From a virus, in IMG/VR virus record IMGVR_UViG_3300010391_001464, positions 1 to 64,000 of that record: 64,000 nt of DNA. One strand, 5' to 3'. Below are positions 24,619 through 42,900 of the stretch, piece by piece (within the stretch, counting starts at the first letter, position 1; every line of letters starts with the position of its first letter). The notes under the pieces are model-generated. The model did no database searches and was not told the origin of the DNA. It worked only from the letters and a program-made list of their open reading frames with translations. Both the position numbers and the translations under genes were made by a program.

Positions 24619-24816
24619 ATGTTAAAAGTTAATATTCAATCAATAGATACTTTATTAAACTATAATATTAATAAAGGAGATGTAATAGAAGTTAAAGGAA
24701 TAGAAGAACCTAAAAATGCATTTCTAGAAATATATCTCTCAGATGAAAATGAAATTACTATTACATTAAACCCATGGAAATTTAAAACGGAGGAAATAAT
24801 TGAAGATAAAAGTTGA
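24619..24816 (+). CDS. Unknown 65-aa acidic protein
   Basis: ATG 24619 behind GGAG. A small beta-rich acidic protein (GDVIEVKGIEEPKNAFLEIYL), perhaps an SH3-like fold. It overlaps the TTG start of the next gene by 17 bases. Confidence 0.6.
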   Translation: MLKVNIQSIDTLLNYNINKGDVIEVKGIEEPKNAFLEIYLSDENEITITLNPWKFKTEEIIEDKS

Positions 24817-25051
24817 TTTTGTTACAAACAGTTCTTCTACTAGTTTTATAATAGACGTTAATAAAATAACTAAGGAACAATCAGATAAATTATTCGATTG
24901 GGCACAATCAGAAAGAAACAAAGATGGTTGGAATATTCATTATAGTGTAGGGAGATATGAAATTGAAGGTTTTAGTATGATGGATAATGATGATATTTAT
25001 GAAATATTAGAAAAATTAGAAATAACAGACGTTATATGGGAGCATTCTTAA
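24800..25051 (+). CDS. SSS-motif protein 1
   Basis: 83 residues from TTG 24800 (GGAGG six bases upstream). The N terminus, KIKVDFVTNSSSTSF, is shared almost unchanged with three other proteins in the next 2 kb, whereas the remaining sequence is unrelated. The conserved stretch looks like a leader or recognition tag rather than part of a fold. The rest is small and acidic and ends with a Trp-Glu-His-Ser tail. Confidence 0.7.
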   Translation: MKIKVDFVTNSSSTSFIIDVNKITKEQSDKLFDWAQSERNKDGWNIHYSVGRYEIEGFSMMDNDDIYEILEKLEITDVIWEHS

Positions 25052-25474
25052 ATGAAAAATGCAAGTATTATATCATTAAGTAAATGTAAAGTAAATAAAG
25101 AATCATGCTCGATATTAAGAAGTAAAGATAAAAATCACCAATGTTATAAATTAAGAAAAGAAATTTTAGAGGGTACTGAGTCTTGGGAGCATTGTCGAGG
25201 TATTAGAACTCCACTAAATAAAACAAGAGTTGATATTTTAAAGAAAATAGAATCAGGTGCAACCTTATATTGGTGTGCTGGAGCATTTCTTAAATATATG
25301 ACTGAATGTAAAAGTTGTGGAGGAATAAAAGAAATTGAAAAAATAATCTCAATGAATGATTTCTGGCTTCTTAAACGTGGTGAGTATATAGAAGAAGGAA
25401 GATCTGGAGAAGGGTCTATTGAATACAACATTACTAAAAAAGGAATTGTATATGCTTTTATAAATGGAGAATAA
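25052..25474 (+). CDS. Cys-containing unknown protein within SSS-motif cluster
   Basis: 140 residues with eight cysteines, including CSILRSKDKNHQC, EHCRG, YWCAGA and ECKSCGG, suggesting metal binding. It lacks the SSS motif but is embedded between two genes that have it. No family recognised. Confidence 0.65.
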   Translation: MKNASIISLSKCKVNKESCSILRSKDKNHQCYKLRKEILEGTESWEHCRGIRTPLNKTRVDILKKIESGATLYWCAGAFLKYMTECKSCGGIKEIEKIISMNDFWLLKRGEYIEEGRSGEGSIEYNITKKGIVYAFINGE

Positions 25475-25475
25475 T

Positions 25476-25874
25476 ATGAAATTAAAAACAGACTTTGTAA
25501 CAAATTCTAGTTCAGTTTCTTATATGATTTCAATCTATAAAGTAACTGATCATATTAAACTAGAAGAGTATCTAGTCAATAATTTCGGAAAATTAGGACA
25601 GCAGATTATTAATCAAAAAATATCAGATAATCTAGAAGATGTGATAGAGAAATTATGTTTAAATGATTATGATGAAAATGAAAAAATGCCTTATGATGGA
25701 GATAAATTAATAAAAGAAGTAAAAAATGAAATATTAAATTCTGAAAAAGTTTTATATTCTAGGAGTAGATCTAATATAATAGAACCAATAGATTCTGTTA
25801 TATTTTATTTAAAATCTAAAGAAGCAGGAGTTGAGCCTATATTTAGTAACAGTTATTCTGGATATGATGGATAA
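25476..25874 (+). CDS. SSS-motif protein 2
   Basis: 132 residues. ATG 25476 was preferred over 25464 because GGAGA lies five bases before it and the product then begins KLKTDFVTNSSSVSY, in register with its paralogues. The remainder is acidic and mainly helical, with no recognised family. Confidence 0.7.
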   Translation: MKLKTDFVTNSSSVSYMISIYKVTDHIKLEEYLVNNFGKLGQQIINQKISDNLEDVIEKLCLNDYDENEKMPYDGDKLIKEVKNEILNSEKVLYSRSRSNIIEPIDSVIFYLKSKEAGVEPIFSNSYSGYDG

Positions 25875-25877
25875 CAA

Positions 25878-26465
25878 ATGAAAATAAAAACAGATTTTAT
25901 TACTAATTCTTCAAGTACTTCATTTGTTTTACATTCATGTTTGGCAACCGAGATTTATGGAAATTTTGATATTAAAAATTTAGAAAAAGATCTAAATAAA
26001 GAATATAGAAAAGTAATAGAAGAACTTGGAGGTTATGAAAAGGTTTTACATATTGAAGAAGATAGTGTGAAACTAGGGGAAGATGATGAAATATCTAATG
26101 TTCAGTCAATTATATCATTAATTGAAACAAGCTCAGGTAATGCTGGAAAAGAAATCCAAATAATGATGGACTCAGATTTAAATTATATTTGGGATTCTGA
26201 TCAACAAAAACCACATTTGTACCTAGCTACATTATTAAAAGAAATTTTAAACTCAATAAAATTTGATAAAGAAGTTAGAACTGTATATCATCAATTCATT
26301 AAAGAGTTTACTGGATCTGGTTGGCATGGAGGAGACCCACAAGGTAAATATATTTTACCTAGTGGTGCTGTCCTAAAAGAGACAATTGTAGGAACTATGG
26401 ATATTTCTAAAGATATTGATATTAGAGATACTTTATTGATTACTGAATGGACTAAAGGAAGATAA
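25878..26465 (+). CDS. SSS-motif protein 3
   Basis: 195 residues beginning KIKTDFITNSSSTSFVL. The longest of the four paralogues. It contains GSGWHGGDPQGKYILPSG near residue 150, suggesting a folded domain. Unknown function. Confidence 0.7.
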   Translation: MKIKTDFITNSSSTSFVLHSCLATEIYGNFDIKNLEKDLNKEYRKVIEELGGYEKVLHIEEDSVKLGEDDEISNVQSIISLIETSSGNAGKEIQIMMDSDLNYIWDSDQQKPHLYLATLLKEILNSIKFDKEVRTVYHQFIKEFTGSGWHGGDPQGKYILPSGAVLKETIVGTMDISKDIDIRDTLLITEWTKGR

Positions 26466-26500
26466 AGATATAAAAACCATTAGTATGGAAAGGGGTATTT

Positions 26501-26839
26501 ATGAAAATTAAAAGCGATTTTGTGACTAATAGTTCTAGTTCTTCATATATAGTATATATTCCTAAAAATGTAACATTTGATAAGTTAAAGATACAAGATA
26601 ATATTGAAGGATCAAACTTGGCAAGTTTAGAAAAAGTTTATAACGAATTACTAAAATCTAAAAAGTTTAATGAATATGACAGTTCCGAAATATTTAGTAC
26701 TCTTAGAACATTCTTATATAATAATAAGTTAATTGTGAGTTCAATAGATACGGGACCTGATTTTGGTTCTATTATATTGGTAGATTTAGAATCGATAAAT
26801 AAAATAAATGAGAGGTTTTCTGATGATACGAATAGCTAA
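26501..26839 (+). CDS. SSS-motif protein 4
   Basis: 112 residues beginning KIKSDFVTNSSSSSYIVYIP, preceded by an AAGGGG-type site. The rest is small and mostly helical with a DTGPDFGS segment. Its end overlaps the start of the radical-SAM gene by 18 bases, implying coupled translation with that enzyme. Confidence 0.7.
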   Translation: MKIKSDFVTNSSSSSYIVYIPKNVTFDKLKIQDNIEGSNLASLEKVYNELLKSKKFNEYDSSEIFSTLRTFLYNNKLIVSSIDTGPDFGSIILVDLESINKINERFSDDTNS

Positions 26840-27844
26840 CTGGTTATTGACAAGAAGATGTAATCTTAAATGTTCTTATTGTGCTATTGCAATGGATTAT
26901 CCTAAAATGCCATTAGAATATCCTGAAATGGCTCATTATTCAAAATATGAAATGAGAACTGAAATAGTATTAGATTATTTAGAAAGACTTAAAGCTCATA
27001 ATCCAAATATGTTTCATATTTTCTATGGTGGTGAACCGCTCTTAAGAAAGATCTTCCTGAAATAATTAAGTTTTGTAATGATAAAGATATTCAATATACT
27101 ATTATTACAAATAACTCAAATGCTATTCAACCCGCTTTAAATGAATTAGTACAAAAAGTTGGAACTTTAAAAGGACTAACTTCTTCAGTTGATCCTATAA
27201 TTATGAGGTCTGACTATTCCGATTTAGATAGATTAAAGAAAAGTAAGGCTGGATTTGAAAGATTAACTGAATGGAAGAAAAAAATAAATGACGTAGTTGC
27301 AGAAGTAACAGTGGATGAAGAAATGCTAGATGATTTAATACCATTAGTATCAATGTTAACCGAAAATGGTATTAGTAGTTCTATAACATTTGTGGATATT
27401 TCAAAAAGTAAATATTATGATTTTTCAAATATAACAGATGAAAAAGTACTAGTCAATAAGAGTGAAAAAGTAAGGAATATTCTTAAAGAATTGGAAAATG
27501 ATAAATATGACGTTCATATGGCTAAAGAGCTATTGCCTAGGATTTATGATATATTACCATCAAATCTAGATTGTGGACTTGATAAGAATGTGCATAATTT
27601 AACCATAGATGCTGATGGGTCTGTCAGATTATGCCTTAGAGTTAGAGGATGTAAAACATCTGACCATTATCTAGATGAATATATTAACTATGATGGAAAT
27701 ATAAATGATAATCTATTATATAATATTAGAGAAGATAAAAAAGAGTTTTGTCTTAGATGTAATTGGACATGTGGAATCATGACATCTTTAATTGAAGAAG
27801 GAAGTTCAAATTATAATAAGTTAGTACATTCTGATAGGAGATAA
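26822..27844 (+). CDS. Radical-SAM enzyme with C-terminal Cys cluster (interrupted by a -1 frameshift)
   Basis: ATG 26822 begins MIRIANWLLTRRCNLKCSYC, with the CxxxCxxC cluster that binds the [4Fe-4S]/SAM cofactor, and GGEPLL follows. The frame then hits TAA at 27063. Slipping back one base after AAG (about 27047) continues RKDLPEIIKFCNDKDIQYTIITNNS, exactly the expected family continuation, and runs to 27844. The C-terminal part has CGLDKN, LCLRVRGC, CLRCNWTC, a SPASM/Twitch-like auxiliary Fe-S region typical of peptide-modifying enzymes. The intact protein would be about 340 residues. The break is a missing base, an error or programmed -1 shifting (A-AAG). Confidence 0.75.
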
Positions 27845-27849
27845 TTATT

Positions 27850-28179
27850 ATGGCTAATGTAATTAAAACTGCAGTTGAATTTTTGCAAAGAGTTAAAGAA
27901 GGAGATTTTGTTTTAATTAAGTTTGTTAAAAAAGATGGTACTGATAGAATTATGAAGGCCACTTTAAATTTTTTAAAAATACCAAATGATAAAAAACCTA
28001 AGGGAGTAGATTTAGTAAAAATTTTAAAACTACTTCAAAATAGCAAAATGCTTAGAGTTTTTGATATAGAAAAAATGGACTGGAGAACTGTACCATTTGA
28101 ATCAGTTGAATGGTTAAAAACCTTGGATAAACAAAGAAAAATAACAACATATACTATCGAAAAAAGAATAAAGGAATAA
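27850..28179 (+). CDS. WYL_2/Sm-like SH3-fold phage protein
   Basis: 109 residues. The pattern RIMKATLNF...IP..., then MLRVFDIEKMDWRTVPFESVEWL fits the small phage family annotated as Sm-like SH3 beta-barrel (WYL_2/DUF2693). Such proteins may bind nucleic acids; the role is unknown. It abuts the radical-SAM gene. Confidence 0.55.
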   Translation: MANVIKTAVEFLQRVKEGDFVLIKFVKKDGTDRIMKATLNFLKIPNDKKPKGVDLVKILKLLQNSKMLRVFDIEKMDWRTVPFESVEWLKTLDKQRKITTYTIEKRIKE

Positions 28180-28515: not shown

Positions 28516-28599
28516 GGAGTAAGATTAATAAAATATTATTTGTTTAAAATGTAGTAGAAGTGGTATTAGAATAACTTAAACCTCTTATTGGAGAAAGTA

Positions 28600-28962
28600 G
28601 TGACAATTCTAGATGAAATTTTAAAAGAAATAAAAGAACCTGATATTGATAATAAAATTAGACAAATATGTGATAGAATAGCAGAAGAAGAAAAAGTAAA
28701 ACATAGCCTCCCACCTGAAGCACCAAAAGGCCCAAATATTTTTCTAGTTCTAGAAACTTTCCCAATTAGTAACTATGATAAAAATTATACATTTTTGACA
28801 TTAGAACGAGAGTCGTACGGAAAATATATAATTGGAGTTTGGAAAGAAATTGAAATTGGAAAAGTTAGAAGAGTTAGAGTAATAGATATTAATGAAGACG
28901 ACCCGAAAAGAATTATAAGAAAATATGCAGAGAAATACAAAGTTATGACTATTAAAAAATAA
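28600..28962 (+). CDS. Unknown 120-aa protein
   Basis: GTG 28600 was preferred over TTG 28588 because TTGGAG lies six bases before it. N-terminal acidic helices, a Pro-rich turn (LPPEAPKGPN), then a basic beta segment. It could be a small interaction protein. Unknown family. Confidence 0.6.
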   Translation: MTILDEILKEIKEPDIDNKIRQICDRIAEEEKVKHSLPPEAPKGPNIFLVLETFPISNYDKNYTFLTLERESYGKYIIGVWKEIEIGKVRRVRVIDINEDDPKRIIRKYAEKYKVMTIKK

Positions 28963-28978: not shown

Positions 28979-29050
28979 ATGTCCATTCCGAAACCTATAG
29001 AAAATAATACAAAAGAAGTAGAAATTAAAATTAAAAGAATAAAGATATGA
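28979..29050 (+). CDS. 23-aa coupled basic peptide
   Basis: MSIPKPIENNTKEVEIKIKR... starts behind GAAAGGG and its TGA overlaps the ATG of the E2-like gene. It fills the gap exactly, suggesting translational coupling into the ubiquitin-like operon. Confidence 0.45.
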   Translation: MSIPKPIENNTKEVEIKIKRIKI

Positions 29051-31680
29051 TGAATTCAAATTCTATATTAATATCTCCCAATCAAGTAAGTATAGTATCA
29101 ACTGATTTATTTTATACACATGTTGGAGAATCTAGTGTTGTTGATCCAGTGGCTAGAACAGTAAAAAAAGTGATAAATAGTGAAGATTTTATACGTAAAG
29201 TTTCTTCTAGAATGTATCCAGACACATCTAGTAAACTTCTTCCGCCTAATTGTAGATATCATAAATCTCTACCAAATAATCGAAGTATAGTTGTTATAGA
29301 AGAACAACCTCAAATGAGAACTATTTTAACTAGTAATCAAGTTAGTAGAGATATTGAAGCTTTAAAGAAAACTGGAGCATGGGAACAATATGGATATAAG
29401 GGTCTTGAAAATACAAAATATGGTTTAGGGGATGGTTCATCATTTAAATTTACTTTATCTTTTCCATATATAGTATATATTATGTCATTTAATGGAAATG
29501 ATTTATGCAATATGACTATATATTTCAGACTGTCTCCTATAACTACATTGAATGATTATTTATTATTAGCCCCTTTACATAATATACCACAAGATCAAAG
29601 AATATGTTTAGGTTCATGGAGGGACTCCAAAACTATATCTGGTTCAGTATCCGAAGAAGTAGAAAAGGTAATAACTACTTTTTGGTCTGGAGTATTTAAT
29701 ATGGATTATACAAATAATTGTCTAAAATACTCAGACGTGTATGAATTAAGCAACTATTTTGTATGGCAATATTTCTCAAAAACTAATCCAATGTTTATTT
29801 TTAAAGTTAAATGGCATCAATGGAATAGTAATTTAATTACTGAAGTAAAACGTCTTCAGAGTATTCTTGGAGTTGGTACTAATACTGTGCCGTTTAGTTT
29901 TCCAGCTCTATGTGATGTATTATTATCTCCTACATTAGTTGCTGAAGAGGAAAAATCTCCTGATGTAAAGTTTCCTCTTTTTGAAAATTTTGTGGAGTCA
30001 ATACATCTAGGAAACGGAAGTCTCTCAATTGGAGATGACATTGTTTATCTAGGAAAAAAATATTATATAACAGACTTTTTGGGAAATGTTAATTACAGTA
30101 ATAGTCCCAGTTATATAGTTTTTACAGATGAAGAAGGTAAAAAGGATTCACTTAAATTAGACAGTAATACTAAAACAGAATTAAATAGTGTATTTGCTAC
30201 AACAAAAGAATCAAAAACTATTAAATTACCTGCTTGTGGAGTTACTATAAATATTGGAGATATAGTAGAATTTACTGTAGATGAAACATTTAAAGGATAT
30301 AGAAAAGTTGAAAATATCAGACTAGGTCTTGATAAGAGAAACCATATTAGACTAGGGAATGACTATTATTTTGCAGATTCTTTAAAAGTAAAAATTCTTG
30401 ACTTAAGTAAAGGTATTGAACTACCTAACGGAACTACTATTATAATCGGCAATACATATTCATTTTTAGTAGATATAGGAACTTCATTACCAATTAAAAG
30501 AATTTTTGATGTAAAAGTTGAAGAATATATAGTACAAAGTGATAAATTAGCCATTAAAATAAGATACTTAGAAGGTGGAAGACTTGAAATTCATGATATC
30601 CATAATCTTTCCAATTTAGGAAATATTATTGATTTTTCTAAATTAGAAATAGTAGAATATAAAGAGAAAGTATTAAGACTTGGATTTAATTTACTAGACT
30701 TTAAAAAATCAATATTTGAAAAAGCATATATAGATACTAACAATTTAGATTTATATGTTAAATATACTCGAGCAGCATCAGAAAATTATGGAACTTATCC
30801 GATACAACAATATTTAAGTCAAAACTTCCCTCCATCTATAAATGATATATTAATCGAAAATAGACAAAGATTATTTATTCCTAGTTTTGAATTTAATATA
30901 GATTTTAAAATTGGAGATAATGTAGTAGTTGCTGATTGGTCTAATCCTCAAGAAATATTAAAAGTAAGAACTATTCAAGGATTTACTTTCGATGAGTCAA
31001 CATATCTTTTAAATATAATTGTTAATGATCCAATAACTAATACTTCAAAGGTAGTTCCTTATGTAAATCTAGATCTAAGATTAGTAAAAGTTGGAAGTGT
31101 TAGAAAAGTATCTATAAAGCAAAGTTCTTATGAGATAGGAGATCAAATAAGAGCAATGTCAAGAGGAATTGCAGATTTTCCAATGAAAGATACTGTTTCT
31201 ATTGTAGCATTTTTAATTGATACTGGAATTGAACCAATGGTGTTATGTTCAAATTTAGCAACTATATGGTTCAGTGATTTGAGGAAACATTTTGCTAAAG
31301 TTCCTGGTAAGAATATAACAATAGATCCATCTACATTTAAGAAGTTTACAACAAGTCCAGGAAATATGGTAATACTTGGAAGAGATAGTTCTTGTCCATG
31401 TTTTATATTAGAATATACAAAATCTCCACAAGATGTAGAAATTATGGAACAAGAGAAATTATTTAGACCAAGACTTATTGATCCACAAAAAGGAGGTTCT
31501 GTTTGTAGTGCTGAAGGATCATTAACCTATCATTTACCATATGGAATTCCAATTCCAAGACTAAGCCAAGCAGAATATATGAGTAAAAAATTACAAAAAT
31601 GTTATATGAATGCACATGGTAGTTATATAAAGAATAAAAATTCACAATATGGAATAAGAGCTACTAAGTTTATGAATTAA
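29047..31680 (+). CDS. Large E2-like (PRTRC-B/prokaryotic E2-type) protein
   Basis: 877 residues. The N-terminal domain (about 1-240) contains LAPLHNIPQDQRICLGSW, like the conserved P-L-x-N-(V/I)-x4-R-(V/I)-C-x-G motif of the PRTRC protein B / prokaryotic E2 group, making Cys187 the candidate thioester cysteine. The region after residue about 320 has at least four spaced IGD-x-(V/I) units (IGDDIVYLG, IGDIVEF, IGDNVVVADW, IGDQIRAM) that look like SH3/KOW-type beta repeats. The C terminus is basic. JAB, E1 and ubiquitin-like genes follow directly. The E2 assignment is from motif plus neighbourhood. Confidence 0.6.
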   Translation: MMNSNSILISPNQVSIVSTDLFYTHVGESSVVDPVARTVKKVINSEDFIRKVSSRMYPDTSSKLLPPNCRYHKSLPNNRSIVVIEEQPQMRTILTSNQVSRDIEALKKTGAWEQYGYKGLENTKYGLGDGSSFKFTLSFPYIVYIMSFNGNDLCNMTIYFRLSPITTLNDYLLLAPLHNIPQDQRICLGSWRDSKTISGSVSEEVEKVITTFWSGVFNMDYTNNCLKYSDVYELSNYFVWQYFSKTNPMFIFKVKWHQWNSNLITEVKRLQSILGVGTNTVPFSFPALCDVLLSPTLVAEEEKSPDVKFPLFENFVESIHLGNGSLSIGDDIVYLGKKYYITDFLGNVNYSNSPSYIVFTDEEGKKDSLKLDSNTKTELNSVFATTKESKTIKLPACGVTINIGDIVEFTVDETFKGYRKVENIRLGLDKRNHIRLGNDYYFADSLKVKILDLSKGIELPNGTTIIIGNTYSFLVDIGTSLPIKRIFDVKVEEYIVQSDKLAIKIRYLEGGRLEIHDIHNLSNLGNIIDFSKLEIVEYKEKVLRLGFNLLDFKKSIFEKAYIDTNNLDLYVKYTRAASENYGTYPIQQYLSQNFPPSINDILIENRQRLFIPSFEFNIDFKIGDNVVVADWSNPQEILKVRTIQGFTFDESTYLLNIIVNDPITNTSKVVPYVNLDLRLVKVGSVRKVSIKQSSYEIGDQIRAMSRGIADFPMKDTVSIVAFLIDTGIEPMVLCSNLATIWFSDLRKHFAKVPGKNITIDPSTFKKFTTSPGNMVILGRDSSCPCFILEYTKSPQDVEIMEQEKLFRPRLIDPQKGGSVCSAEGSLTYHLPYGIPIPRLSQAEYMSKKLQKCYMNAHGSYIKNKNSQYGIRATKFMN

Positions 31681-31690
31681 TGGAGGATTA

Positions 31691-32887
31691 ATGTTTAACG
31701 TACATATTAATGATGGATCTAAACCAATACCCAATGATGATATTTGTTATATTATTGGAAAAGATGGAATATATTTAAAGAAAAAATTAGGAATGGTTGA
31801 AAGTTGTACAAAAGTTGATAATATTTCAATATTAAATCCAGTAAATATATATGGAAAGATACATCTTCCTAAAATACCATCTAAAGTATTTTGTAAAGTA
31901 GTCTCTTTCTTTAGAGCAGCATATGAGAAATATAAAGGTGAGTCAGCTATAGTTTTATATTTCAATGAAAAAAAGAATCAATATAAAATTGTAGTACCAG
32001 AACAAAAAGTTTCTGGTGTTGCAGTTGATTATGAAGTTGATACAGAACAGACTGTTCCTGGATATAAATTAGTAGGTACTATTCATAGTCATGCCAATTT
32101 TGGCGCTTTTCATTCAGGAACAGATCAAAATGATGAAAAGAATTTTGATGGACTTCATATAACTGTAGGAAATGTAGCCGAACCTGATGGGTCATTTTCT
32201 TTATCTACTTCTGTAGTTATAAATGCTTCAAGATTTATTGAAAAATCTGAAGATTATTTAGAAGATGTTATTTCTACAGATGGCGAAAAGAAAACATTTG
32301 TTGTAGAAGGAAAAATATATGAATATATATCTCAGGCTAATAAAGATAGATTTATATTTAAAGATAATGTAAAAGATGAAGATTTTGAATTCAACCCAAA
32401 ATGGATGGATAAGGTTGAAGCAAAGAAATATATTACATATTATAGTGCTGGAAATAGTTATACACCACATTGGCAAAATTGGTTCGATCATGATGATTAT
32501 GATCGAATGATGCAATATAGAAAAGATGCTCCTTATCGATATAAAGGCAAATATTGTTATAAAAATGCTAATGGAAAACATAGTAAGAAAAACGGTAATA
32601 GGAGAAACGATAATATTATACAATTTCCTAATGAGAAGCATGAAGAAGATTTACAAATTAATATGTTTAAATTAAATGAAGCAGAAAGAAATACTCAAAC
32701 TGATGTTCCATGTGAGAAATGCATCTATAAAGATTTAAAATTAGATATTATAATTGATGAAATAGATGAACAAGCTGAAGAATTAAAAGAGGAAAAAGAT
32801 GAGTTAAGACAATATGTTAGACAAATGTATCCAGATTTACCAGATAATGAGGTAGATAAAGTAATGGAGGGTATGCATTTTGAATAA
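31691..32887 (+). CDS. JAB/JAMM metalloprotease-like protein
   Basis: 398 residues. GTIHSHANFGAFHSGTDQND carries the JAMM zinc motif H-x-H-x7-S-x2-D (His-Ser-His, then Ser and Asp), with an upstream Glu (KYKGESAIVLYF) as likely catalytic acid. Such domains remove ubiquitin-like proteins or trim their C termini. The C-terminal half has a basic Asn/Lys stretch, a CEKC pair and an acidic coiled coil. The gene overlaps the E1 gene by eight bases, which points to a joint function. Confidence 0.85.
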   Translation: MFNVHINDGSKPIPNDDICYIIGKDGIYLKKKLGMVESCTKVDNISILNPVNIYGKIHLPKIPSKVFCKVVSFFRAAYEKYKGESAIVLYFNEKKNQYKIVVPEQKVSGVAVDYEVDTEQTVPGYKLVGTIHSHANFGAFHSGTDQNDEKNFDGLHITVGNVAEPDGSFSLSTSVVINASRFIEKSEDYLEDVISTDGEKKTFVVEGKIYEYISQANKDRFIFKDNVKDEDFEFNPKWMDKVEAKKYITYYSAGNSYTPHWQNWFDHDDYDRMMQYRKDAPYRYKGKYCYKNANGKHSKKNGNRRNDNIIQFPNEKHEEDLQINMFKLNEAERNTQTDVPCEKCIYKDLKLDIIIDEIDEQAEELKEEKDELRQYVRQMYPDLPDNEVDKVMEGMHFE

Positions 32888-33578
32888 TATTAAAATAGTA
32901 GGTTTGGGTGGTATTGGGTCTGTACTAATAGAATCTATTTCAAGATTTTTAAACTATTCCATTCAATCACAAGATCCTATATATATAACTTTAATAGATG
33001 GAGATGTTTTTGAATCAAAAAATTATGAAAGACAAATCTTTCATATGTTAGGTAATAAGGCCGAAGTTAAAACTAAAGAACTTCAAATGAAATTTGATAG
33101 AGTAAATTTTAAGGCCATAAATTCTTTTGTTAATTCAGAAAATATTTCAAGTATAATTTCGAACGGTGATATATTGTTTTTATGTGTTGATAATCATAAG
33201 ACAAGAAAATGTGTATCAGATTTCTGTAAAACTTTAGAAAATGTTACTTTAATAAGTGGTGGTAATGAAATTACAGATGGTAATGTTCAAGTCTTTATAA
33301 GAAGGGAGGGAAAAGATTTAACTTCATCACTAACTGATTATCATCCTGAGATAGAAAATCCTACAGATAAATCTCCAGATGAAATGAGTTGTGAAGAATT
33401 AAGTAAATCAGCACCACAACTATTTTTTACTAATCTAACTGTAGCAACTATTATGTGTTGGACATTTTTTAACTTTGTAGCAAATAATAAAGTCACAACA
33501 TATTCAGAAATATATTTTGATATTAAAACAATGAGCACGTTACCAAAATTTAGAAAAGTGAAACAAAAAGCAGCTTAA
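32880..33578 (+). CDS. E1-like/ThiF-family adenylyltransferase
   Basis: 232 residues from TTG 32880, nine bases after GGAGG inside the end of the JAB gene. The N-terminal Rossmann motif is GLGGIGS, followed by LIDGDVFESKNYERQIF (Asp and the Arg of the ATP site) and CVDNHKTRKC. SCEEL offers a candidate thioester Cys. ThiF/E1 proteins adenylate the C terminus of a ubiquitin-like partner; the probable partner is at 33695. Confidence 0.88.
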   Translation: MNNIKIVGLGGIGSVLIESISRFLNYSIQSQDPIYITLIDGDVFESKNYERQIFHMLGNKAEVKTKELQMKFDRVNFKAINSFVNSENISSIISNGDILFLCVDNHKTRKCVSDFCKTLENVTLISGGNEITDGNVQVFIRREGKDLTSSLTDYHPEIENPTDKSPDEMSCEELSKSAPQLFFTNLTVATIMCWTFFNFVANNKVTTYSEIYFDIKTMSTLPKFRKVKQKAA

Positions 33579-33694
33579 ATAAACTTTTTAAATTCAAACA
33601 GTCCTTATTTTAAAATGATAATTATTATGTTTATTTTCTTAAAAGATTCCTAATTATCATAAACCTTTATAAACAAAAAATTAGGAGATATAGA
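33579..33694 (+). promoter_or_regulatory. Intergenic promoter-bearing region before the ubiquitin-like gene
   Basis: 116 extremely AT-rich bases between two otherwise tightly packed genes, ending in a TTAGGAGATATAG ribosome binding site. Because the next gene has its own terminator, a promoter must lie here. TTTATAAAC (about 33666) is a possible core, but no consensus could be confirmed. Confidence 0.4.
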
Positions 33695-34255
33695 ATGGAT
33701 AGTAAGTATACCTATGAGAATCTTGAAGTAATGACAGTTGCAGAATTAAAGGGAATTGTAAAGGAACTTGGTGTTACTGGTTATAGTAAGTCCACAAAAT
33801 ATGATATTATTGATATGATTCTTTCAGAACAGGGAGTAGAAGTAACTCAAGAAAATTTAGCAGAGAAGACTATTGCAGAGTTAAAAGACATTGCAAGAAA
33901 TCTTGATATGAAGGTTGAGAAGGGTGTTACCAAGGCAGATTTATTAAACAGAATTCTTGCAGTAGATGCAGGCGGTAAGGATGAAGTACATGCATTCGGT
34001 GGTAACATAGAAGCAGCACATAATATGGTTCAGGGTGGTCCTGCAACTATTACCGTATCATGTGGTGCTTCTGGTGGTAAATTTCCTGTTATCGGAAAGA
34101 CAGTTAATGCAGTTGCAGATTTCTTAAAAGAAATCCTCAACATTGATCCGACCGCAACAGCCATGGTTAACGGCGAGTCAGTCAAAGGAAACTTTGTACT
34201 CGGTGAGGGTGACAACGTCGAATTTGTAAAGCAAGCTGGATCAAAAGGCTGCTAA
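33695..34255 (+). CDS. Ubiquitin-like (beta-grasp) protein with two SAP/Rho_N-like N-terminal repeats
   Basis: 186 residues. Two helical repeats, MTVAELKGIVKELGVTGYSK and KTIAELKDIARNLDM...TKADLLNRIL, look like SAP/Rho_N domains. The C-terminal 65 residues (FPVIGKTVNAVADFL, then MVNGESVKGNFVLGEGDNVEFV) form a ThiS/MoaD/PRTRC-C-like beta-grasp ending QAGSKGC. PRTRC protein C ends in a similar G-T/S-K-G, so the tail could be activated directly or after loss of the Cys. It has its own upstream region and a strong terminator, and G/C-rich codons such as AAG, GGT and CTC, all signs of high expression. Confidence 0.7.
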   Translation: MDSKYTYENLEVMTVAELKGIVKELGVTGYSKSTKYDIIDMILSEQGVEVTQENLAEKTIAELKDIARNLDMKVEKGVTKADLLNRILAVDAGGKDEVHAFGGNIEAAHNMVQGGPATITVSCGASGGKFPVIGKTVNAVADFLKEILNIDPTATAMVNGESVKGNFVLGEGDNVEFVKQAGSKGC

Positions 34256-34266
34256 TTAAATAAAAA

Positions 34267-34305
34267 TCCGAGGATTTAAAAATAGTACAAATCCTCGGGT
34301 TTTTT
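34267..34305 (+). terminator. Strong terminator after the ubiquitin-like gene
   Basis: Stem TCCGAGGATTT / AAATCCTCGGG (11 bp, one wobble pair) followed by six T, starting 11 bases after the stop codon. Confidence 0.92.
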
Positions 34306-34425
34306 AATTGAAAAATTAAAAAAATAATTTAAAATAATACAAAAATATGCTTCAAAATATAAAATAAATTCGGAATCTAACTGTTTTAATAAGAACATAA
34401 TAAATGATATGGAGGTGCAAAAATT

Positions 34426-35367
34426 TTGCATCAAGATATAGAAAGAATAAAAACTGTAAATGAGTTCTTAGAAAAAACTTCTACAACTACATATATTACT
34501 ATATGTGTTATAGGGATAGGAACTCTAGGTGGATTTCTTTCTAGATGCATCTCTGACCTGGAAGAAGTAACTGAATTATGCATAATTGATTATGATATTA
34601 TAGAAGAAAAGAATTTAATAAATTCAATATACACATATGAAGATCTGGGGCAGTATAAAGTAGATGCATTAGAAAGAATAATTAAAAGAGAGAATAAGAA
34701 TATAAATATAACAAAAATAAACGAGAGATATATTGAAAGTAAAACGATTCTACCGAAGAAATATGATTTAGTTTTAGATTGTAGAGATTTTACTTATGAC
34801 AGACTAAAAGAAATATCTGCTCGATTATATATTACATCAAGATATCTTATTATCGATTGTAGAAAAAATGTAACATATGATACTCATACAGAAGGAAAGT
34901 ATTTATCTTTTTTAAGTAAAAATGATTTAAGATATGCAAGCGTTGAAGCAACAATGTTGATTATTAAAGGTGGTTTAAAGTTACTTATAGAAAATGAGTC
35001 AGTTATGTCAATTGAACTAGATCATCTAGATAGAAAAGTACATGATGACATTTCAAAATCAAAAGAAGTAGATATTATATATGAGCCTCACCAAAATGAA
35101 AAAAGATTCGTTAATTTAAAAGAAGTATTTAATTTGATAATCGAATATAATAAACTAAACGATTTAGTCATATGCTTGGGCAGTAAAAACGATTCCAATA
35201 TAGATAAACTTGTTCAAAGGTCAAGTCTAAAAAGTTATCAAGATGTTTTACAAGTTTTAATGCCGCTAGTTTCTCTTCCCTATACACATTCAAGCTATCT
35301 AATTAAATTACAGATAGTAGATAATAAATATTATATTGAATTATTACCTGACACAGGAGCCGCGTAA
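34426..35367 (+). CDS. Second E1-like/ThiF-family protein, divergent
   Basis: 313 residues from TTG 34426, ten bases after GGAGG. ICVIGIGTLGGFLSR is a Rossmann GxGxxG motif, LCIIDYDIIEEKNLINSIY the following Asp-containing strand, and LVLDCRDFTYDR resembles the C-x-D-x5-R region. The key Arg of canonical E1s after the Asn is not obvious, so catalysis is uncertain. It ends IELLPDTGAA. The next gene begins directly at its stop. Likely a partner or regulator within the ubiquitin-like system. Confidence 0.65.
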   Translation: MHQDIERIKTVNEFLEKTSTTTYITICVIGIGTLGGFLSRCISDLEEVTELCIIDYDIIEEKNLINSIYTYEDLGQYKVDALERIIKRENKNINITKINERYIESKTILPKKYDLVLDCRDFTYDRLKEISARLYITSRYLIIDCRKNVTYDTHTEGKYLSFLSKNDLRYASVEATMLIIKGGLKLLIENESVMSIELDHLDRKVHDDISKSKEVDIIYEPHQNEKRFVNLKEVFNLIIEYNKLNDLVICLGSKNDSNIDKLVQRSSLKSYQDVLQVLMPLVSLPYTHSSYLIKLQIVDNKYYIELLPDTGAA

Positions 35368-36054
35368 ATGATCCCATTCAAACACGAAAAAGTAGGAGAC
35401 ATTGAAAGCTTCAACTTTAATATAGAAATAGTTCCGGAATTTATACAATATCAAGGAAAGATTAAGAAAATTGTAAAAATACCAAATGACTATTTCAAGA
35501 TTAGAGAGTTTAGAATTATAGTAAACAAAAATGTAGTTGAAGATTTAATTATAATGAATGCATTTCATCCAAATGCAACTCCAAATCCTAATGAAGTAGG
35601 ACTAAAATTTGGAGAAACACCACCTTATATTCAATTTTTCTGTCTTCCAGAAAATTTGAAGAATAAAGATATGGGAATAGATTTTAATATTGAGCATTAT
35701 ATAGAATATTTTATCCAAATGTTAAAAACATATAACTATGATTCATCTTATTGGATAAGATGGAATGGATTTACTCTAATTGATTATGAACATGTGATAG
35801 ATAAAGATGATAAAAAGTTAGAGAAAAAAGGTAAGAAGGAAAATCTTAAGTCTGCTTTAAAAGACTTAGGTACTTATGTAATATCAGATACTACTAATGC
35901 AGCTAAAAAATCATTATCAGAAGTAGTTTCATCTGATAATTTTAGGTTTCCTAGAAGTTCTTTTGAACTGGAATTGAGGATGGATCAACTATTATTACAA
36001 CTAGAAAGAAATTTAATATTAGCGTTGCAACGGAGATTAGATGGTAAACAATAA
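35368..36054 (+). CDS. Unknown protein paired with second E1-like gene; possible E2-variant
   Basis: 228 residues, starting at the base after the previous TAA. The N-terminal 140 residues are beta-rich and include NAFHPNATPNPNEVGLKFG, reminiscent of the HPN...G-x-C-L segment of E2 enzymes but without a Cys at the usual place (a Cys occurs later in QFFCLPE). A helical, basic/acidic C terminus follows. An inactive E2 variant is possible; this is a weak similarity seen by eye. Confidence 0.5.
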   Translation: MIPFKHEKVGDIESFNFNIEIVPEFIQYQGKIKKIVKIPNDYFKIREFRIIVNKNVVEDLIIMNAFHPNATPNPNEVGLKFGETPPYIQFFCLPENLKNKDMGIDFNIEHYIEYFIQMLKTYNYDSSYWIRWNGFTLIDYEHVIDKDDKKLEKKGKKENLKSALKDLGTYVISDTTNAAKKSLSEVVSSDNFRFPRSSFELELRMDQLLLQLERNLILALQRRLDGKQ

Positions 36055-36235
36055 AGAAGATTCATTAGAAGTAGTTATAAGAAAAATGATTCATAAAGAA
36101 TTAGAAATAGTTGAACGAGAAAAGGTTGACCAACTTGTAAAAGAATTAATTCCTGAGTTAGATAAATTAATTTGTATTAAGGTTAAAGAACATCTAAAAG
36201 GAATTGCAGAATTTATATTAGAAAAGACTAAGTAA
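36041..36235 (+). CDS. 64-aa helical protein
   Basis: ATG 36041 lies six bases after GGAG and overlaps the previous gene by 14 bases. Entirely helical and charged (KELEIVEREKVDQLVKELI), a likely small coiled coil. It precedes RNA polymerase set 2. Confidence 0.6.
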   Translation: MVNNKEDSLEVVIRKMIHKELEIVEREKVDQLVKELIPELDKLICIKVKEHLKGIAEFILEKTK

Positions 36236-36254: not shown

Positions 36255-38957
36255 ATGCCCAAATTTTTAAATTTTCATGAATTTTGTAAAGAGTTGCCAG
36301 AAATAACAAGTGTAAAAATTATAGATAAAAAAAATTTCCATTCAGAAGGTTTATTTTCTGAGCAGATCTTTGGACCATTAAATAATTATACATGTCAATG
36401 TGGTATTTATTACGGCTCATCAAAGGATGGTTATTTATGTCCTGAATGTAATGTACAAGTTGTAAATAGTGATGAGAGGAGAAGAAGATTTGCAAAAATT
36501 ATACTTCCTATTCCAGTAGTAAATCCATTATTTTATGATATGTTAGTAGATATTGGAGATGGAGATTTAAAAGATATATTAGATGAAATTATGAAAAGTG
36601 ATGTTAGTATTATGTATAAAGATAAAGATGTTTATTATGTTACGGAACAAGGAAAACAACCGGAAGGAGTAGAAACCTGGGAACGACTTGATGCAATATA
36701 TGAAGTAGTAAGTAATATCTCAAATAAATTAGCTGAGAAAGGAATCGAAGAGTGGAAAATAGTTAATAAAAATTTAGATAATCTAATAATAGATCAGATT
36801 ATCGTGTTACCACCTGACTTACGGCCAGCAGCTAAGGGAATTGAGAGAAATAATCAAGTACTTGACCAAATTAATAGGTACTATGCTCAAATCCTTCATA
36901 AGAAGGAATCTATGAAGGATACAATTATTGATATTGAAAAAGATAAGAAACTATATTATAGTTATTATAGGCAAATTCAAAAAGATGTGTCAGAACTATA
37001 TAAACATATACTTGAAAAACTTTCTAAAAAAGAAGGACTAATTAGAGGAAATATTTTAGGGAAAAGAATTGATTTTTCAGGAAGAGCAGTTATTGTTCCT
37101 GACCCAACTCTTGACTTAGATTCATGTGTATTACCTTATCTTATGTTTTTAGAATTATTTAAACTTCAAGTATCTAAACGATTAATATATAAAGGAAAGT
37201 TTAAACTTCTCAATAACGCAATTGATTTTGTTGATAAATGTATTGAATTAAAAACTACATCATTATTTAGAATATGTGAAGAAATTGCAAAAGATGAAGT
37301 ATGTATTTTAAATAGACAACCATCTTTACATCGTTTAAGCATGATAGGTTTTAATATAAAAATATCATTAGATGAAGTAATTAAAATTCATCCATTGGTA
37401 TGTCCTGGATTTAATGCTGACTTTGACGGGGATCAAATGGCAGTATATGTTCCTATTACTGAAGTCACTAAACAAGAAGTTAAAGATAAGCTTCTAATGT
37501 CAAAGAATTTAAATAATCCATCTGACAATAGTTTGAGTACTACTCCTAGCCAAGATATTATTTTAGGTCTTTATTCTTTATCTGCAAATTTATTTCCAGA
37601 TTTACTGGAAATAGTTGAATTTAAAGGAAGAAAGATTACAGAAAGTAGAAAAATTGTAAATGAATGTTTTCCAGATGATTATCCAATAGTAGATGAAGAG
37701 TTAAAAAAATTAAATATTATAAAAATTTTGAATGATATTAAAGACAGATATCCTGAATCAGTTATAAAGGAAGTATTAGATAAAACTAAATTAGTAGGTT
37801 TTAAATATTCTACATTGTTTGGTTCAACAATGGCATTAAATGAATGTTACCTTAAAGATGCTGACAAATATAAACAAATTATTTATTCTGAACAAGCAAT
37901 ATCACAACAGTTGAATAGAGTTTCTTCTAATGAAACCAAAGACTTAATGAAAAAGAACTTTAATTATGCATATACAGTTGAATCTGGAGCTAGAGGAAGT
38001 TGGGATCAAGTTAGACAAATCATTTTAACTAGAGGATTTATATCTAACTTTAAAGGACAGATACTTCCAGTTCCAATTAAACATAGTTTAATAGATGGAT
38101 TAAATCAAGAAGAATTTTTTCTATCAACATATGGTTGTAGAAAAGGACTTCTTGATGTAGCTTTAAATACTGGAATCTCAGGTTATTTATCTAGAAAATT
38201 AATATTTACTTGTTCAAATCTTCAGTTAGATGAAAACTTAAAAGATTGTGGAACTACCGATACATTAAGTATTTTTGTAAAAGATGAAAAGAAAGCAAAA
38301 ATGTTAATCGGTAGATGGTTTGTAATTAATAATAATTTAATTTTGATTACAAAGGCTAATTACGAATCTTTTGTAGGTCAAACTTTAAATTTAAGAAGTC
38401 CAATATTATGTAAAAGCCCAAAAGTATGTACTACTTGCTATGGAGATTTATATAAATCTTTACATAGTAAATTTGTAGGAGTTATATCAGCTCAGTCTTT
38501 AGGTGAATGTAATACTCAACTCGTTCTCCGCACGTTTCACACGAGTGGAGTTGCATCTGTAAAAGATAAGATAAATAATAAAGATATGATCCAACAAGAT
38601 ATTATTGGAGATTTATCTTCAGTGTCTAAAATGCTTCATAATTTTCAAGGAAAAAATTATACAGATTTAGTTAGTAAGCTTTTTGAGGTATATAATAATA
38701 GTAGAAAAATTCATCATGTTCATTTTGAAGTATTGGTTGCACAATTGATGTGGAATAATCTCCATAAGTGGAGATTATTAGAAGATAGAGATAAAAAAGA
38801 AATACAATTTTACTCAGTTCAAACTGTGCCAGCAAAAGAAAGTTGGTTGTTAGGTTTAGCATTTAGCAACCCAAAGAAAAATATCCTTAGTGGTATTCTT
38901 TATCCTGGAAACTATACTGGAGTAATGGATAAAATTCTATGTGGAGAAAAGATATAG
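36255..38957 (+). CDS. DNA-directed RNA polymerase beta'-like subunit (set 2)
   Basis: 900 residues, one chain covering both halves of beta'. An N-terminal zinc finger is present (CQCG ... CPEC, residues about 48-73), followed by ILGKRIDFSGRAVIVPDP and NRQPSLHRLSM. The catalytic NADFDGDQMAVY is at 387-398 (Asp 389, 391, 393). CKSPKVCTTCYGDL and ECNTQLVLRTFHTSG are the C-terminal Cys cluster and trigger-loop block. It is clearly distinct from the set 1 protein, which lacks the N-terminal finger. An endonuclease gene follows, then the beta gene. Confidence 0.95.
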   Translation: MPKFLNFHEFCKELPEITSVKIIDKKNFHSEGLFSEQIFGPLNNYTCQCGIYYGSSKDGYLCPECNVQVVNSDERRRRFAKIILPIPVVNPLFYDMLVDIGDGDLKDILDEIMKSDVSIMYKDKDVYYVTEQGKQPEGVETWERLDAIYEVVSNISNKLAEKGIEEWKIVNKNLDNLIIDQIIVLPPDLRPAAKGIERNNQVLDQINRYYAQILHKKESMKDTIIDIEKDKKLYYSYYRQIQKDVSELYKHILEKLSKKEGLIRGNILGKRIDFSGRAVIVPDPTLDLDSCVLPYLMFLELFKLQVSKRLIYKGKFKLLNNAIDFVDKCIELKTTSLFRICEEIAKDEVCILNRQPSLHRLSMIGFNIKISLDEVIKIHPLVCPGFNADFDGDQMAVYVPITEVTKQEVKDKLLMSKNLNNPSDNSLSTTPSQDIILGLYSLSANLFPDLLEIVEFKGRKITESRKIVNECFPDDYPIVDEELKKLNIIKILNDIKDRYPESVIKEVLDKTKLVGFKYSTLFGSTMALNECYLKDADKYKQIIYSEQAISQQLNRVSSNETKDLMKKNFNYAYTVESGARGSWDQVRQIILTRGFISNFKGQILPVPIKHSLIDGLNQEEFFLSTYGCRKGLLDVALNTGISGYLSRKLIFTCSNLQLDENLKDCGTTDTLSIFVKDEKKAKMLIGRWFVINNNLILITKANYESFVGQTLNLRSPILCKSPKVCTTCYGDLYKSLHSKFVGVISAQSLGECNTQLVLRTFHTSGVASVKDKINNKDMIQQDIIGDLSSVSKMLHNFQGKNYTDLVSKLFEVYNNSRKIHHVHFEVLVAQLMWNNLHKWRLLEDRDKKEIQFYSVQTVPAKESWLLGLAFSNPKKNILSGILYPGNYTGVMDKILCGEKI

Positions 38958-38958
38958 G

Positions 38959-39972
38959 ATGTACTTTTGCGATTATGGTTGTGGTAATGAAGCAATAATT
39001 ACGTTCAAAAATGGAAAAAAGTGTTGCCAAGAAAAATATTCAAAATGTCCCGGGTTACGAAAAAAATATAGTAACCCGGGATCTAAAAATCCAAGATTTG
39101 GTAAGCATTGGTCTGAGGAATGGAAAAAAAATCATTCTGAAAAATTAGTAGGAAGAAAGATTAAAAGAACTTTTATTCCTATAAAATTAGAAGAAGACAA
39201 AAATATCTTATGTGATTTTTGTAATAAAAGACTAGCTAAGTATAAATTAAATAATGGAAAAAATTGTTGTGAAGAACATCAAAGTAAATGTCCAGAAATA
39301 AGAGTTAAAATAGGAAAAAAAATAAAAGGAAAAATGGTTGGTATAAATCATCCATTTTTTGGAAAAACTCACACAGATGAAGTTAAACAATTACAATCTA
39401 TTAGAGTAAAAGGAAATAAATATAATTTAAATACATTAAATAAGATAAATAAAAAGTATCCATTTTTTTCAGAGATTGAAAATACAAAAGAGATAAATGG
39501 AAGTTTAATAGTAAAATGTAAACATTGTAAAAAATGGTTTGAACCTACAAGATCTCAGTTATATGAAAGAATTTATGCTATAAAAAATAAAGGGACTATT
39601 CATGATACAGGAAATTCATATTTTTACTGTTCTTCTGAATGTAAACTAGAGTGTGTATATTATTACAGAAAAAAAGATCCTGACATTCTAAGAGAATATG
39701 AAAGATATAAACAAAATGTATTAAAATATACTAATAGAAATATAAAATTTAACTTTGATAAAATCGAAAATTCAAGTAAAAAAATAAATGGAGATAACTT
39801 AGAACTGGATCATAAATTTTCAATATATTCAGGTTTTATAAATAATATTGATCCAAAAATAATTGGTCATTGGAAAAATTTAAAATATATAAAAAAAGTA
39901 GAAAATAGAAAGAAAAGAGAATCTTGTTCTATAACTATTGAAGAAGTTCTTTCATATTCACAGGAGGTTTAA
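38959..39972 (+). CDS. HNH homing endonuclease between RNA polymerase genes
   Basis: About 337 residues from ATG 38959 (GTG 38941 is an alternative). It has two similar N-terminal Cys modules (CDYGCGNEAIITFKNGKKCC and CDFCNKR...NGKNCCEEH), two NUMOD3-like NNP/NHP-x-FGK units (KNPRFGKHWSEE, NHPFFGKTHTDE), a CKHCKKWF zinc pair, and a C-terminal HNH-type LELDHKFSIYSG ... HWKNLK ... ENRKK. It sits between the beta' and beta genes and its 3' end contains the ribosome binding site of beta. A GC-rich hairpin (CCCGGGTTAC / GTAACCCGGG, 39048-39079) lies inside the gene. Confidence 0.85.
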   Translation: MYFCDYGCGNEAIITFKNGKKCCQEKYSKCPGLRKKYSNPGSKNPRFGKHWSEEWKKNHSEKLVGRKIKRTFIPIKLEEDKNILCDFCNKRLAKYKLNNGKNCCEEHQSKCPEIRVKIGKKIKGKMVGINHPFFGKTHTDEVKQLQSIRVKGNKYNLNTLNKINKKYPFFSEIENTKEINGSLIVKCKHCKKWFEPTRSQLYERIYAIKNKGTIHDTGNSYFYCSSECKLECVYYYRKKDPDILREYERYKQNVLKYTNRNIKFNFDKIENSSKKINGDNLELDHKFSIYSGFINNIDPKIIGHWKNLKYIKKVENRKKRESCSITIEEVLSYSQEV

Positions 39973-39976
39973 AATA

Positions 39977-42900
39977 TTGAATATTATTAATCCTAATTTT
40001 AAAGTTAATGAAGATAAAAATATTTTTAATATTAGACAAAAGGAATTTGATAACTTAGAACCTTTAATAAGACAAACTATTTCTCCAGTAGAGGAACTTG
40101 GTTTTACTGTTAAAGAATTTGGAATCAGAGAAAGTAGATATACTGCAGGAGATCTAAGTAAAACTTTAAAACAAAATATAGTTATTAAACTTGAGAAAAA
40201 TAGTACTGATATAGATATAACTTTAGCAATGCCAACATTGGTTGATAAAAATTATATAGTTATAGGTGGAAGAAAAAAAATTCCTCAATTTCAATTATTT
40301 GATGTTCCAGTTATAACAAGAGGAAAAAGTACTAAAATAAGAACGAATGTTGCTACAATTATAGTAGAAGAGGAAAAAAATCCACCATTTATTAGCGTAA
40401 CTGTATTAAGTAAAAAAGTTCCACTTTCTCTTATTATTTTTGCTAAATATTCTAAACAAGAAATTATTGATAGATTTAAATTAGTGGACCTTGATGAGGA
40501 GTCATTAAAAAGAGATAATTATTATGAAAAATTATTATATGATTTAAAGAAAACATATATTGAAGCAATAAATTCTGAAATGACTCAAGATGATTTTATT
40601 AAAGCTCTCGGTGAGTACTACTCAAAATATAATGCTAAAGTAAAAGGTGAAGATGTCATATATGCTTTAGATATTATGTTAAAAGTAGATATTATGACCG
40701 CTAGATTTTTTAAATCTAAAAATATCATAGATGAAATAATTGAAGTAATAAAATTAGGTGAGATTGATGATCTAGATTATAGAAATAAAAGAATTAGATG
40801 TTTTGAGTATATAGTATTAGCAAAAGTTTCAAAAATTATATTCGACCTTTGTACATCAAATAGATCGCTAAAACAACCAAAATTTAATGTAAATTCTACT
40901 CAAATTTTAACTGAATGTAACGTGTCTGATATAGTTCAGTTTGATTTTTCTATTAATCCTATAGAGGAATTAACTAAACTATCTAGAGTAAGTTTAGTAG
41001 GCCCAGGTGGTTTTGATAAACAAAATATTCCGGAGCATCTAAGGGATGTAGCTCCTACAATGTTTGGAAGAATATGTCCAGTTGATACTCCAGATAGAGA
41101 AAATTGTGGAGTTCAGCATAATTTATTACCAAATGTTGATTTAGACGAAAATCTTAAATTTACAGATAAAATCCTAGATAAACAACCAATATCTATTCCA
41201 GTAGCAATGGTTCCATTCCTAGAACATGATGATCAAACCAGACTTCAAATGTCTTCTTCACAAATGAGACAGGCAATTATGTTAAAGGATTTTGACCAAG
41301 CATTAGTACAATCTGGAATAGAAGGAATATATACTGATCAAACTCAGTTTTTAAAACGTGCTAAAAAAGATGGAGAAATATTATATGTAGATAATAAATA
41401 TATAATAGTTGTTTATGATGATAAAGAAGTTGAAATATTTGATATATCATATAGAAAAATTTATGTAGGAAATATGGACATATTCAAAGTCTATATAAAA
41501 CAAGGAGACAAAGTAAAGCGAGGTGATATATTAGCTGAAAGTAATTATTGCCATGATGGAAGGATACAATTTGGAAAGAATTTATTAACAGGTGTAATGA
41601 TTCATTATGGTTATAATTATGAAGACGGTATAGTAATATCAGATAGATTAGTAAAGGATGGAATTCTTACTTCTCCTCATTTTGTAGATTTATCATTTAA
41701 TATCCCAACTAATAAGGTTTTATTAACTCTTGATTCTAAGAAGTATAAACCCTTGCCAGAAATAGGCGAAGAGATAAAAAATGGTAATCCCTACGCAATA
41801 ATAAAAGAAATGCCAACAGATAACATGGTTGATTATTATACTGTGTTCGAAGAATCAAATCCATTATTAACTAAAAATGACACGATTGTAACTGAAGCAA
41901 ACATATTTATTAATGAATGGAATGAGAATATTCCAGAATTTAATCATTGGGTTAAAGATGTAATTAAAAAGCAAAATAGAGAAGAAGAACAATTTCAAGG
42001 AATTCTTAATGAATATTTACCGAAAGACTCAGCTACTAAATTTATAAAAGATAATGATTTAGATAAATTTTCATCAGTTGGTAAATATAAAATAAAGAAT
42101 GAAAAAATAAATGGTATTCATGTAGAAATGTATGGAATATTCTTTAGGCCTATAAAGGTCGGAGATAAAATTGGAAATAGACATGGTAATAAAGGTATAA
42201 TTTCAAATATAGTACCACATGATAAAATGCCAAAGTTAGAGGATGGTAGACATCTTGATATTTGTATAAATCCACTTGGTATTATATCTAGAATGAATAT
42301 TGGTCAATTATTTGAATTACATTTAACAATGTCTATTAATGATTTAAAGAAAAATCTTTTAGTAATGTTGAACAGTAGTTCAAATACTAAACAGATTGAT
42401 ATGAAAAAATATTTAATAGAATATATTAAGATTTTAGATAATACTGTTGGTAATTGGTATTCTTGTCAGTTCATATCTCAAATTCCAAAAGTTATAGATG
42501 AAAACTTTATAAATAATTTATTTATAGTTCAACCACCGTTTGAATCAACTCCAATACAAAAGATTGAAGAGGCATTAAAATTTACAGGTACTAATTTTAC
42601 TTATAATTTACATGATCCTATTTCTAATCATAATTTCTTAAATAAAATAGCAGTAGGTTATATGTATTTCTTCAGAATGGTACATATAGCTGAAAACAGA
42701 CTAGCGGCTAGAGGTATTGCATCTTACGCTAGAAGAACTCTTCAACCATTAGCAGGAAGAAAAAACCGTGGTGGACAAAGATGTGGAGAAATGGAAACTG
42801 CATGTTTAATTGCGCATGATGCCCCACATAATTTATATGAATTTCAGACTACTAAATCTGACTGTATAGATTTAAAAAATAAATATATTCGAGAACAAAT

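Follow-up and report, generated by a model that had tools for sequence, protein, structure and literature searches.

The viral record IMGVR_UViG_3300010391_001464 (IMG/VR, 90,144 bases) carries a compact island of seven open reading frames (ORFs) that probably encodes a reversible conjugation pathway for a ubiquitin-like protein (Ubl). The island lies at 29047-36235 of the stretch analysed here (hereafter the window), which comprises bases 1-64000 of the record; the remaining 26 kb were sampled. All seven ORFs are on the plus strand and tightly packed. In order, they encode a large E2-like protein (29047-31680), a JAMM/JAB metalloprotease (31691-32887), an E1-like activating enzyme, E1a (32880-33578), a putative Ubl (33695-34255), a second E1-like protein, E1b (34426-35367), a putative E2 variant, E2v (35368-36054), and a small protein of 64 residues (36041-36235) that is kept in most relatives. 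The gene for an RNA polymerase (RNAP) beta'-like subunit (36255-38957, plus strand; RNA_pol_Rpb1 domains, 1.8e-33) starts 20 bases downstream and serves as the syntenic anchor of the locus. An earlier sequence-only reading had described the first six ORFs as one tight run directly upstream of an RNAP operon, and we recovered all six exactly where it had placed them.

Components of the island

The 877-residue E2-like protein carries the motif PLHN...RICLG, in which N179 and C187 are invariant in all homologs aligned (56/56; further residue counts come from alignments of 60 homologs for E1a, JAB and Ubl, and of 63 for E1b and E2v). Cys187, together with Asn179, is the predicted catalytic residue. 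An N-terminal UBC-type domain (residues ~1-267) is followed by a beta-rich C-terminal region of about 600 residues. Prok-E2_D (PF14460) matches the full protein at E=0.002 and the N-terminal domain at 3.1e-4, where the score of 20.9 bits compares with a gathering cut-off of 25 bits. Among 34 E2 homologs, 26 match the same family at E<=0.01 (best 1.4e-7) and 11 match PRTRC_B (TIGR03737; best 5e-5), to which the window copy itself gives no match; the homologs thus supply the E2 or PRTRC-B profile match on which the sequence-only reading had made its case depend. Furthermore, profile comparison (hhalign) with PRTRC_B-like E2s of plasmids and phages returned a probability of 99 and a score of 123.8, against a maximum of 17.2 for shuffled profiles, and an AlphaFold2 model (predicted local distance difference test, pLDDT, of 83) orders the N-terminal domain as a helix, four strands, the Cys loop and further helices. 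A single-sequence search of viral contigs with the window E2 gave no matches. Two related loci (L127, L035) hold a tandem pair of E2-family ORFs in place of one.

The adjoining JAB protein, a putative deconjugase that may also trim the Ubl precursor, matches Prok-JAB (E=4.2e-6) and PRTRC_A (TIGR03735; E=3.7e-10), the latter at 39.7 bits and short of the 101.8-bit cut-off. The HSH-x7-S-x2-D signature is borne out by its relatives, with E84, H132 and H134 (of HSH 132-134), S142 and D145 invariant in 60/60. E1a matches ThiF (E=6.7e-23) and PRTRC_ThiF (TIGR03736; E=1.5e-14), here again at 53.9 bits and below a cut-off of 144.75 bits; its GxGGxG motif and D40, R51, Q52, K60, D104 and C171, which include the ATP-site residues, are likewise invariant throughout (60/60).

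The putative Ubl combines two N-terminal Rho_N domains (E=3.8e-13) with a predicted beta-grasp tail ending AGSKGC in the window. Within this ending K184-G185 is invariant (60/60), although the termini themselves vary: 37 of the 60 proteins end exactly at KG, 15 at KGC as in the window, and a few have longer tails. Relatives match the beta-grasp families TGS (17/60), ThiS (10/60) and MoaD (2/60), and the family profile aligns with PRTRC-type Ubls of plasmids and phages (hhalign probability 92, score 36.6; shuffled maximum 11.6), which points to the beta-grasp tail that the sequence-only reading had likewise relied upon.

E1b, the second and more divergent E1-like protein, matches ThiF at E=1.7e-13 and aligns with E1a at an hhalign probability of 98. 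It retains GxGxxG, K78 and D118, and an Asn (N66) replaces the arginine of the ThiF NxxRQ motif in 40/63, so that E1b may be a pseudo-E1 or the partner of an E1. Its C-terminus, ETGAA, is conserved; the idea of a hidden Ubl in this C-terminal domain was dropped, the hhalign score being at the shuffled level. In E2v, the assignment as an E2 type would follow from its motif, HPN...C (HPN...FC in the window): H67 and C92 are invariant in 63/63 and HPN is kept in about 60/63. Most relatives space it as HPN-x8-C, while the window copy has an insertion between HPN and C. The window protein has no family match, and one relative matches UQ_con at 0.006.

Co-inheritance with RNAP and kinship with other modules

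To compare the island across related phages, IMG/VR was searched with RNAP beta' and with the JAB protein, 80 loci being kept from each search, and synteny was counted over the 57 RNAP-anchored loci whose upstream sequence extends for 9 kb or more. The E2-JAB-E1a-Ubl module is present in 51/57 and E1b-E2v in 53/57, with both in 50/57. The order is identical through to RNAP beta' and beta (the latter at 39938-43006 in the window, plus strand) in all 50 loci that hold both modules, and the arrangement is therefore far beyond chance. Since the first module occurs alone in one locus and the second alone in three, the two appear separable. Across 49 loci, protein distances of the island track those of RNAP beta', with Mantel r of 0.82 for E2, 0.79 for E1a, 0.76 for Ubl, 0.66 for JAB, 0.58 for E1b and 0.44 for E2v, none of which was reached in 999 permutations; E1a is also conserved at nearly the level of the polymerase (median p-distance 0.46 versus 0.41). 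This tracking argues that the island belongs to the core equipment of the phage clade, is inherited vertically and is not cargo. With contigs of up to 312 kb (L144), its carriers, a large group of uncultivated phages, include jumbo phages. The conserved block is wider than the island itself, taking in RNAP beta' and beta downstream and, upstream, a radical SAM gene and two small plus-strand genes that are co-conserved in most relatives, one between the radical SAM gene and the island (27850-28179) and one directly upstream of E2 (28588-28962). Phage-type islands with RNAP were also seen in two archaea-labelled contigs of metagenome-assembled genomes, one assigned to Thermoplasmatales (L171) and the other, a contig of 211 kb, to Woesearchaeota (L200); these may be mis-binned phages or a hint to the host.

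The sequence-only reading had likened the island to PRTRC loci, and this resemblance stands as one between related modules and fails as membership. The closest described PRTRC-type organisation is that of the type 6d operons (Iyer et al., 2006, PMC1779556). Like these, the island has a separate E2 of putative Prok-E2_D type, a JAB, an E1 of the ThiF type and a small, predicted beta-grasp Ubl with a KG end, with the C-terminal-Gly Ubl, JAB, E1 and E2 genes adjacent to one another; the order E2-JAB-E1 is also that of a PRTRC-type module on a Cytobacillus plasmid. The differences are nonetheless extensive. The absolutely conserved His after the Cys of type 6d E2s (Iyer et al., 2006) has no invariant or near-invariant counterpart in our E2 alignment. 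Beyond the curated cut-offs missed above, PRTRC_C (TIGR03738) finds no match in the 90-kb record even at E<=10, nor does PRTRC ParB (TIGR03734) in the same record, which is possibly a fragment. Moreover, the island Ubl carries Rho_N domains and its gene follows that of E1, the E2 has ~850 residues, and a second E1/E2v pair and an adjoining phage RNAP are added. In midpoint-rooted trees, a branch of length 1.12 with 100/100 support parts the PRTRC-type E1s from those of the phage clade and a set of bacteria, and the JAB tree (61 rows) agrees, uniting the phage clade, the bacteria and three other viral rows at 99/94 and the sampled phage clade at 95/98. Given the missed cut-offs, the missing ParB and PRTRC_C and the separate trees, we regard the island as PRTRC-like in its predicted working and yet as a sister lineage.

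Related modules are also borne by isolated phages, namely Bacillus phage KLEB27-3 (gp194-199), Salmonella phage Arash (gp246-250) and Vibrio phages D69, D148 and D181. Those of KLEB27-3, Arash and D69 share with the island a phage-borne E2-JAB-E1 set with the same catalytic motifs, but fall on the other branch of the E1 tree, have single-domain E2s of ~230-255 residues and do not adjoin RNAP in the stretches read. Unlike the Rho_N-fused island protein, the Ubls of KLEB27-3 and D69 are tandem repeats without Rho_N. The four repeats of KLEB27-3 (encoded with E2, JAB and E1) meet at GVKG-M junctions and the two repeats beside the E2-JAB-E1 genes of the Cytobacillus plasmid at GTKG junctions, which suggests processing by JAB. 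Mass spectrometry of Arash particles detected the E1 (Gp246), JAB (Gp247) and E2 (Gp248) with 5, 3 and 2 unique peptides, respectively (PMC10585845). Our search of the open-licence literature turned up no study that examines PRTRC functionally as a Ubl system.

An E1a-profile scan of bacterial and archaeal genomes additionally uncovered 47 loci, of which most encode a JAB and many an E2 and a Ubl, in NC10/Methylomirabilota, Desulfobacterota, several lineages of the candidate phyla radiation (CPR) and Lentisphaerota. These belong to the same E1/JAB clade as the island, and their Ubls mostly end in KG; they differ in lacking E2v and the linkage to RNAP, and their E2 is mostly shorter and their Ubl short. 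Two Uhrbacteria loci (L198, L210) come closer: their Ubls begin with a Rho_N-like region and their E2s are ~1,000 residues long. The E1 tree places the window clade nearest Uhrbacteria at a support (90/88) that is not decisive. In loci of the Desulfobacterota type the Ubl was not detected. This E2-JAB-E1-Ubl sister family appears to be undescribed. Several of its loci have features of their own: the two Uhrbacteria loci hold two E2-family ORFs each; they and a third CPR locus (L186) have a Ubl in which KA replaces the conserved C-terminal KG; a reverse transcriptase ORF lies ~3 kb upstream of E2-JAB-E1-Ubl in four Lentisphaerota/Victivallales genomes (L216:3524-4429; L206, L214, L215); and ten loci, mainly of NC10, share an ORF family ~3.3 kb upstream of E1 with a median of 585 and up to 713 residues (L175, L176, L178, L180, L182, L183, L190, L194-L196).

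Bil and Bub are bacterial antiphage systems built on the same logic of E1, E2, Ubl and JAB-type enzymes, and differ from the island in serving host defence. The window proteins match no Bil component model, and its E1 proteins match generic E1-E2 defence models only. CBASS type II (Cap2/Cap3) similarly joins E1-E2-type conjugation to reversal by a JAB, but its Cap2 is a fused E2-E1 that conjugates a CD-NTase, whereas the island encodes E1 and E2 separately, has a Ubl of its own and shows no nucleotidyltransferase among its proteins.

Proposed pathway and competing explanations

An E1, an E2 with an invariant Cys, a JAMM protease and a processed Ubl together form a recognised signature of Ubl conjugation (PMC1779556). 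The complete activating, conjugating and deconjugating gene set that the sequence-only reading proposed for the phage is supported, with the predicted catalytic residues invariant. From the genes, homology, residues, synteny and co-inheritance observed we infer the chemical steps, and further below the targets, as follows. JAB would cut the C-terminal Cys off the Ubl precursor to expose GSKG; E1a would then use ATP to adenylate the terminal Gly, and the Ubl would pass, possibly via Cys171 of E1a, to a thioester on Cys187 of E2 and from there onto a lysine in the target, through an isopeptide bond that JAB could later cleave. Trimming would be needed only in some members, since 37 of 60 Ubls already end at KG; in general, JAB would serve to deconjugate. 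Each conjugate would gain a nucleic-acid-binding patch from the Rho_N pair. E1b and E2v may form a second, separable activating and conjugating pair, or else act as an E1 partner and a specificity factor.

Given the Rho_N domains and the co-inherited RNAP operon, the likeliest targets are transcription or nucleoid proteins of the phage, or transcription proteins of the host, an assignment that we put forward tentatively. Equally speculative is the larger picture, in which a clade of jumbo phages would depend on core, vertically inherited Ubl signalling: using two E1/E2 pairs and a Ubl that binds nucleic acid, these phages would mark transcription or nucleoid proteins reversibly in the course of infection. 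The phage and bacterial branches would, in this picture, together make up a non-PRTRC family of Ubl conjugation. Conjugation of Ubls in bacteria has mostly been studied as anti-phage defence; here, a full pathway appears as core equipment of a phage, alongside an apparently undescribed bacterial sister family. Some phages may therefore govern proteins through a ubiquitin-style code, and the island offers a testable case of such viral control in prokaryotes. In a 2021 survey covering 224 jumbo phages, neither ThiF nor JAB is mentioned, and 'ubiquitin' only twice, once about eukaryotic viruses (PMC7824862); a 2026 review of jumbo phages leaves ubiquitin, JAB and ThiF unmentioned (PMC13282480). 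The island is therefore undescribed in these two sources; our reading was confined to open-licence literature and we make no claim to priority.

Several observations weigh against this interpretation. A fold search with the full-length E2 model returned no E2, the query being dominated by its beta-rich regions and giving weak Tudor-like matches. The window Ubl itself has no direct match to a beta-grasp family, its relatives alone providing these, and its tail is KG and not GG. No E3 and no target were identified, and adjacency to RNAP is no proof that transcription proteins are the substrate. In Arash, the particles held 116 proteins including metabolic enzymes (PMC10585845), so the virion association of its homologs may be contamination. 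For E2v, fold searches against PDB and viral libraries gave no significant match (a chain of the Bub complex, 9eae_C, ranks 29th at E=1.3), and the idea that it diverged from a copy of the large E2 was rejected at an hhalign probability of 2-5%, near the shuffled level. These last two results would also fit a small protein at 35368 that is unrelated to E2s and has its HPN...C motif by chance. We consider this somewhat unlikely, because HPN-x8-C is an E2 active-site signature whose His and Cys never vary in the family; a Pex4-type E2, moreover, ranks first in one and second in the other of two PDB sequence searches, weakly (E=0.13, 0.42) though in active-site register, and the AlphaFold2 model (pLDDT 79) sets strands before the HPN loop and a helix after it. 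The E2 variant suggested by the sequence-only reading accordingly keeps its motif and gains no profile or fold support.

Granting conjugation, the phage might instead tag its own structural proteins during head or tail assembly. The distant homologs in Arash particles, a PAAR spike gene within ~8 kb of the homologs in Arash and Vibrio phage D69, and the Ubl/JAB pair that acts in tail assembly of lambda-type phages (PMC1779556) would all fit such a role, which the Arash proteomics keeps open; we nonetheless judge it unlikely, as the island in this clade adjoins RNAP, topoisomerase and helicase genes and not structural genes, and Arash lies on the other, PRTRC-side branch. More doubtful still is a sulfur carrier, whose ThiS/MoaD-like tail would receive an E1-made thiocarboxylate for thiolation of tRNA, a cofactor or a peptide, with E2 and JAB in other roles. 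The matches of the Ubl relatives to ThiS, TGS and MoaD, the resemblance of E1a to ThiF/MoeB and the upstream radical SAM and small TDFVTNSSS genes are compatible with this; however, the conserved block showed neither a rhodanese or sulfurtransferase nor a partner of the ThiG type, the invariant Cys187/Asn179 of E2 and JAMM site speak against it, as do the tandem Ubl repeats of related modules, and the presence of E2 and JAB beside the Ubl favours conjugation over sulfur carriage. Finally, interference with host Ubl immunity such as Bil, Bub or CBASS type II (for example by a Ubl that serves as a decoy or a JAB that deconjugates) is improbable too, even though such systems act against phage (for CBASS, PMC10097602) and the module has its nearest kin in bacteria, for sabotage would not require a full E1-E2-Ubl set, and vertical inheritance with RNAP in a very diverse clade is unlike sporadic counter-defence genes.

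Neighbouring genes

Upstream of the island, 24800-26839 holds at least four tandem small genes whose products start M-K-x-K-[TSV]-D-F-[VI]-T-N-S-S-S-x-S, followed by the radical SAM gene (26808-27844). This pairing adjoins the island in many relatives and resembles precursor peptides with their maturase. The radical SAM gene is broken by a frameshift near 27060, either a sequencing error or a local mutation, and is intact in relatives (340-360 residues). Downstream, a homing-endonuclease-like ORF (38941-39972), HNH-type by eye and with weak matches to PHROGs of unknown function, sits between RNAP beta' and beta and overlaps both. A promoter scan gave no more matches than in shuffled sequence.

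Elsewhere, the record encodes a type II topoisomerase, a helicase, an SbcC-like gene and a terminase. A tRNA with a CTA anticodon (44503-44574; amber-suppressor type, called tRNA-Pyl) raised the idea of amber recoding, which is unsupported, 9 of 58 main ORFs stopping at TAG. A second set of RNAP beta'/beta-like genes lies at 1046-8179, recalling phages that have virion and non-virion RNAPs.

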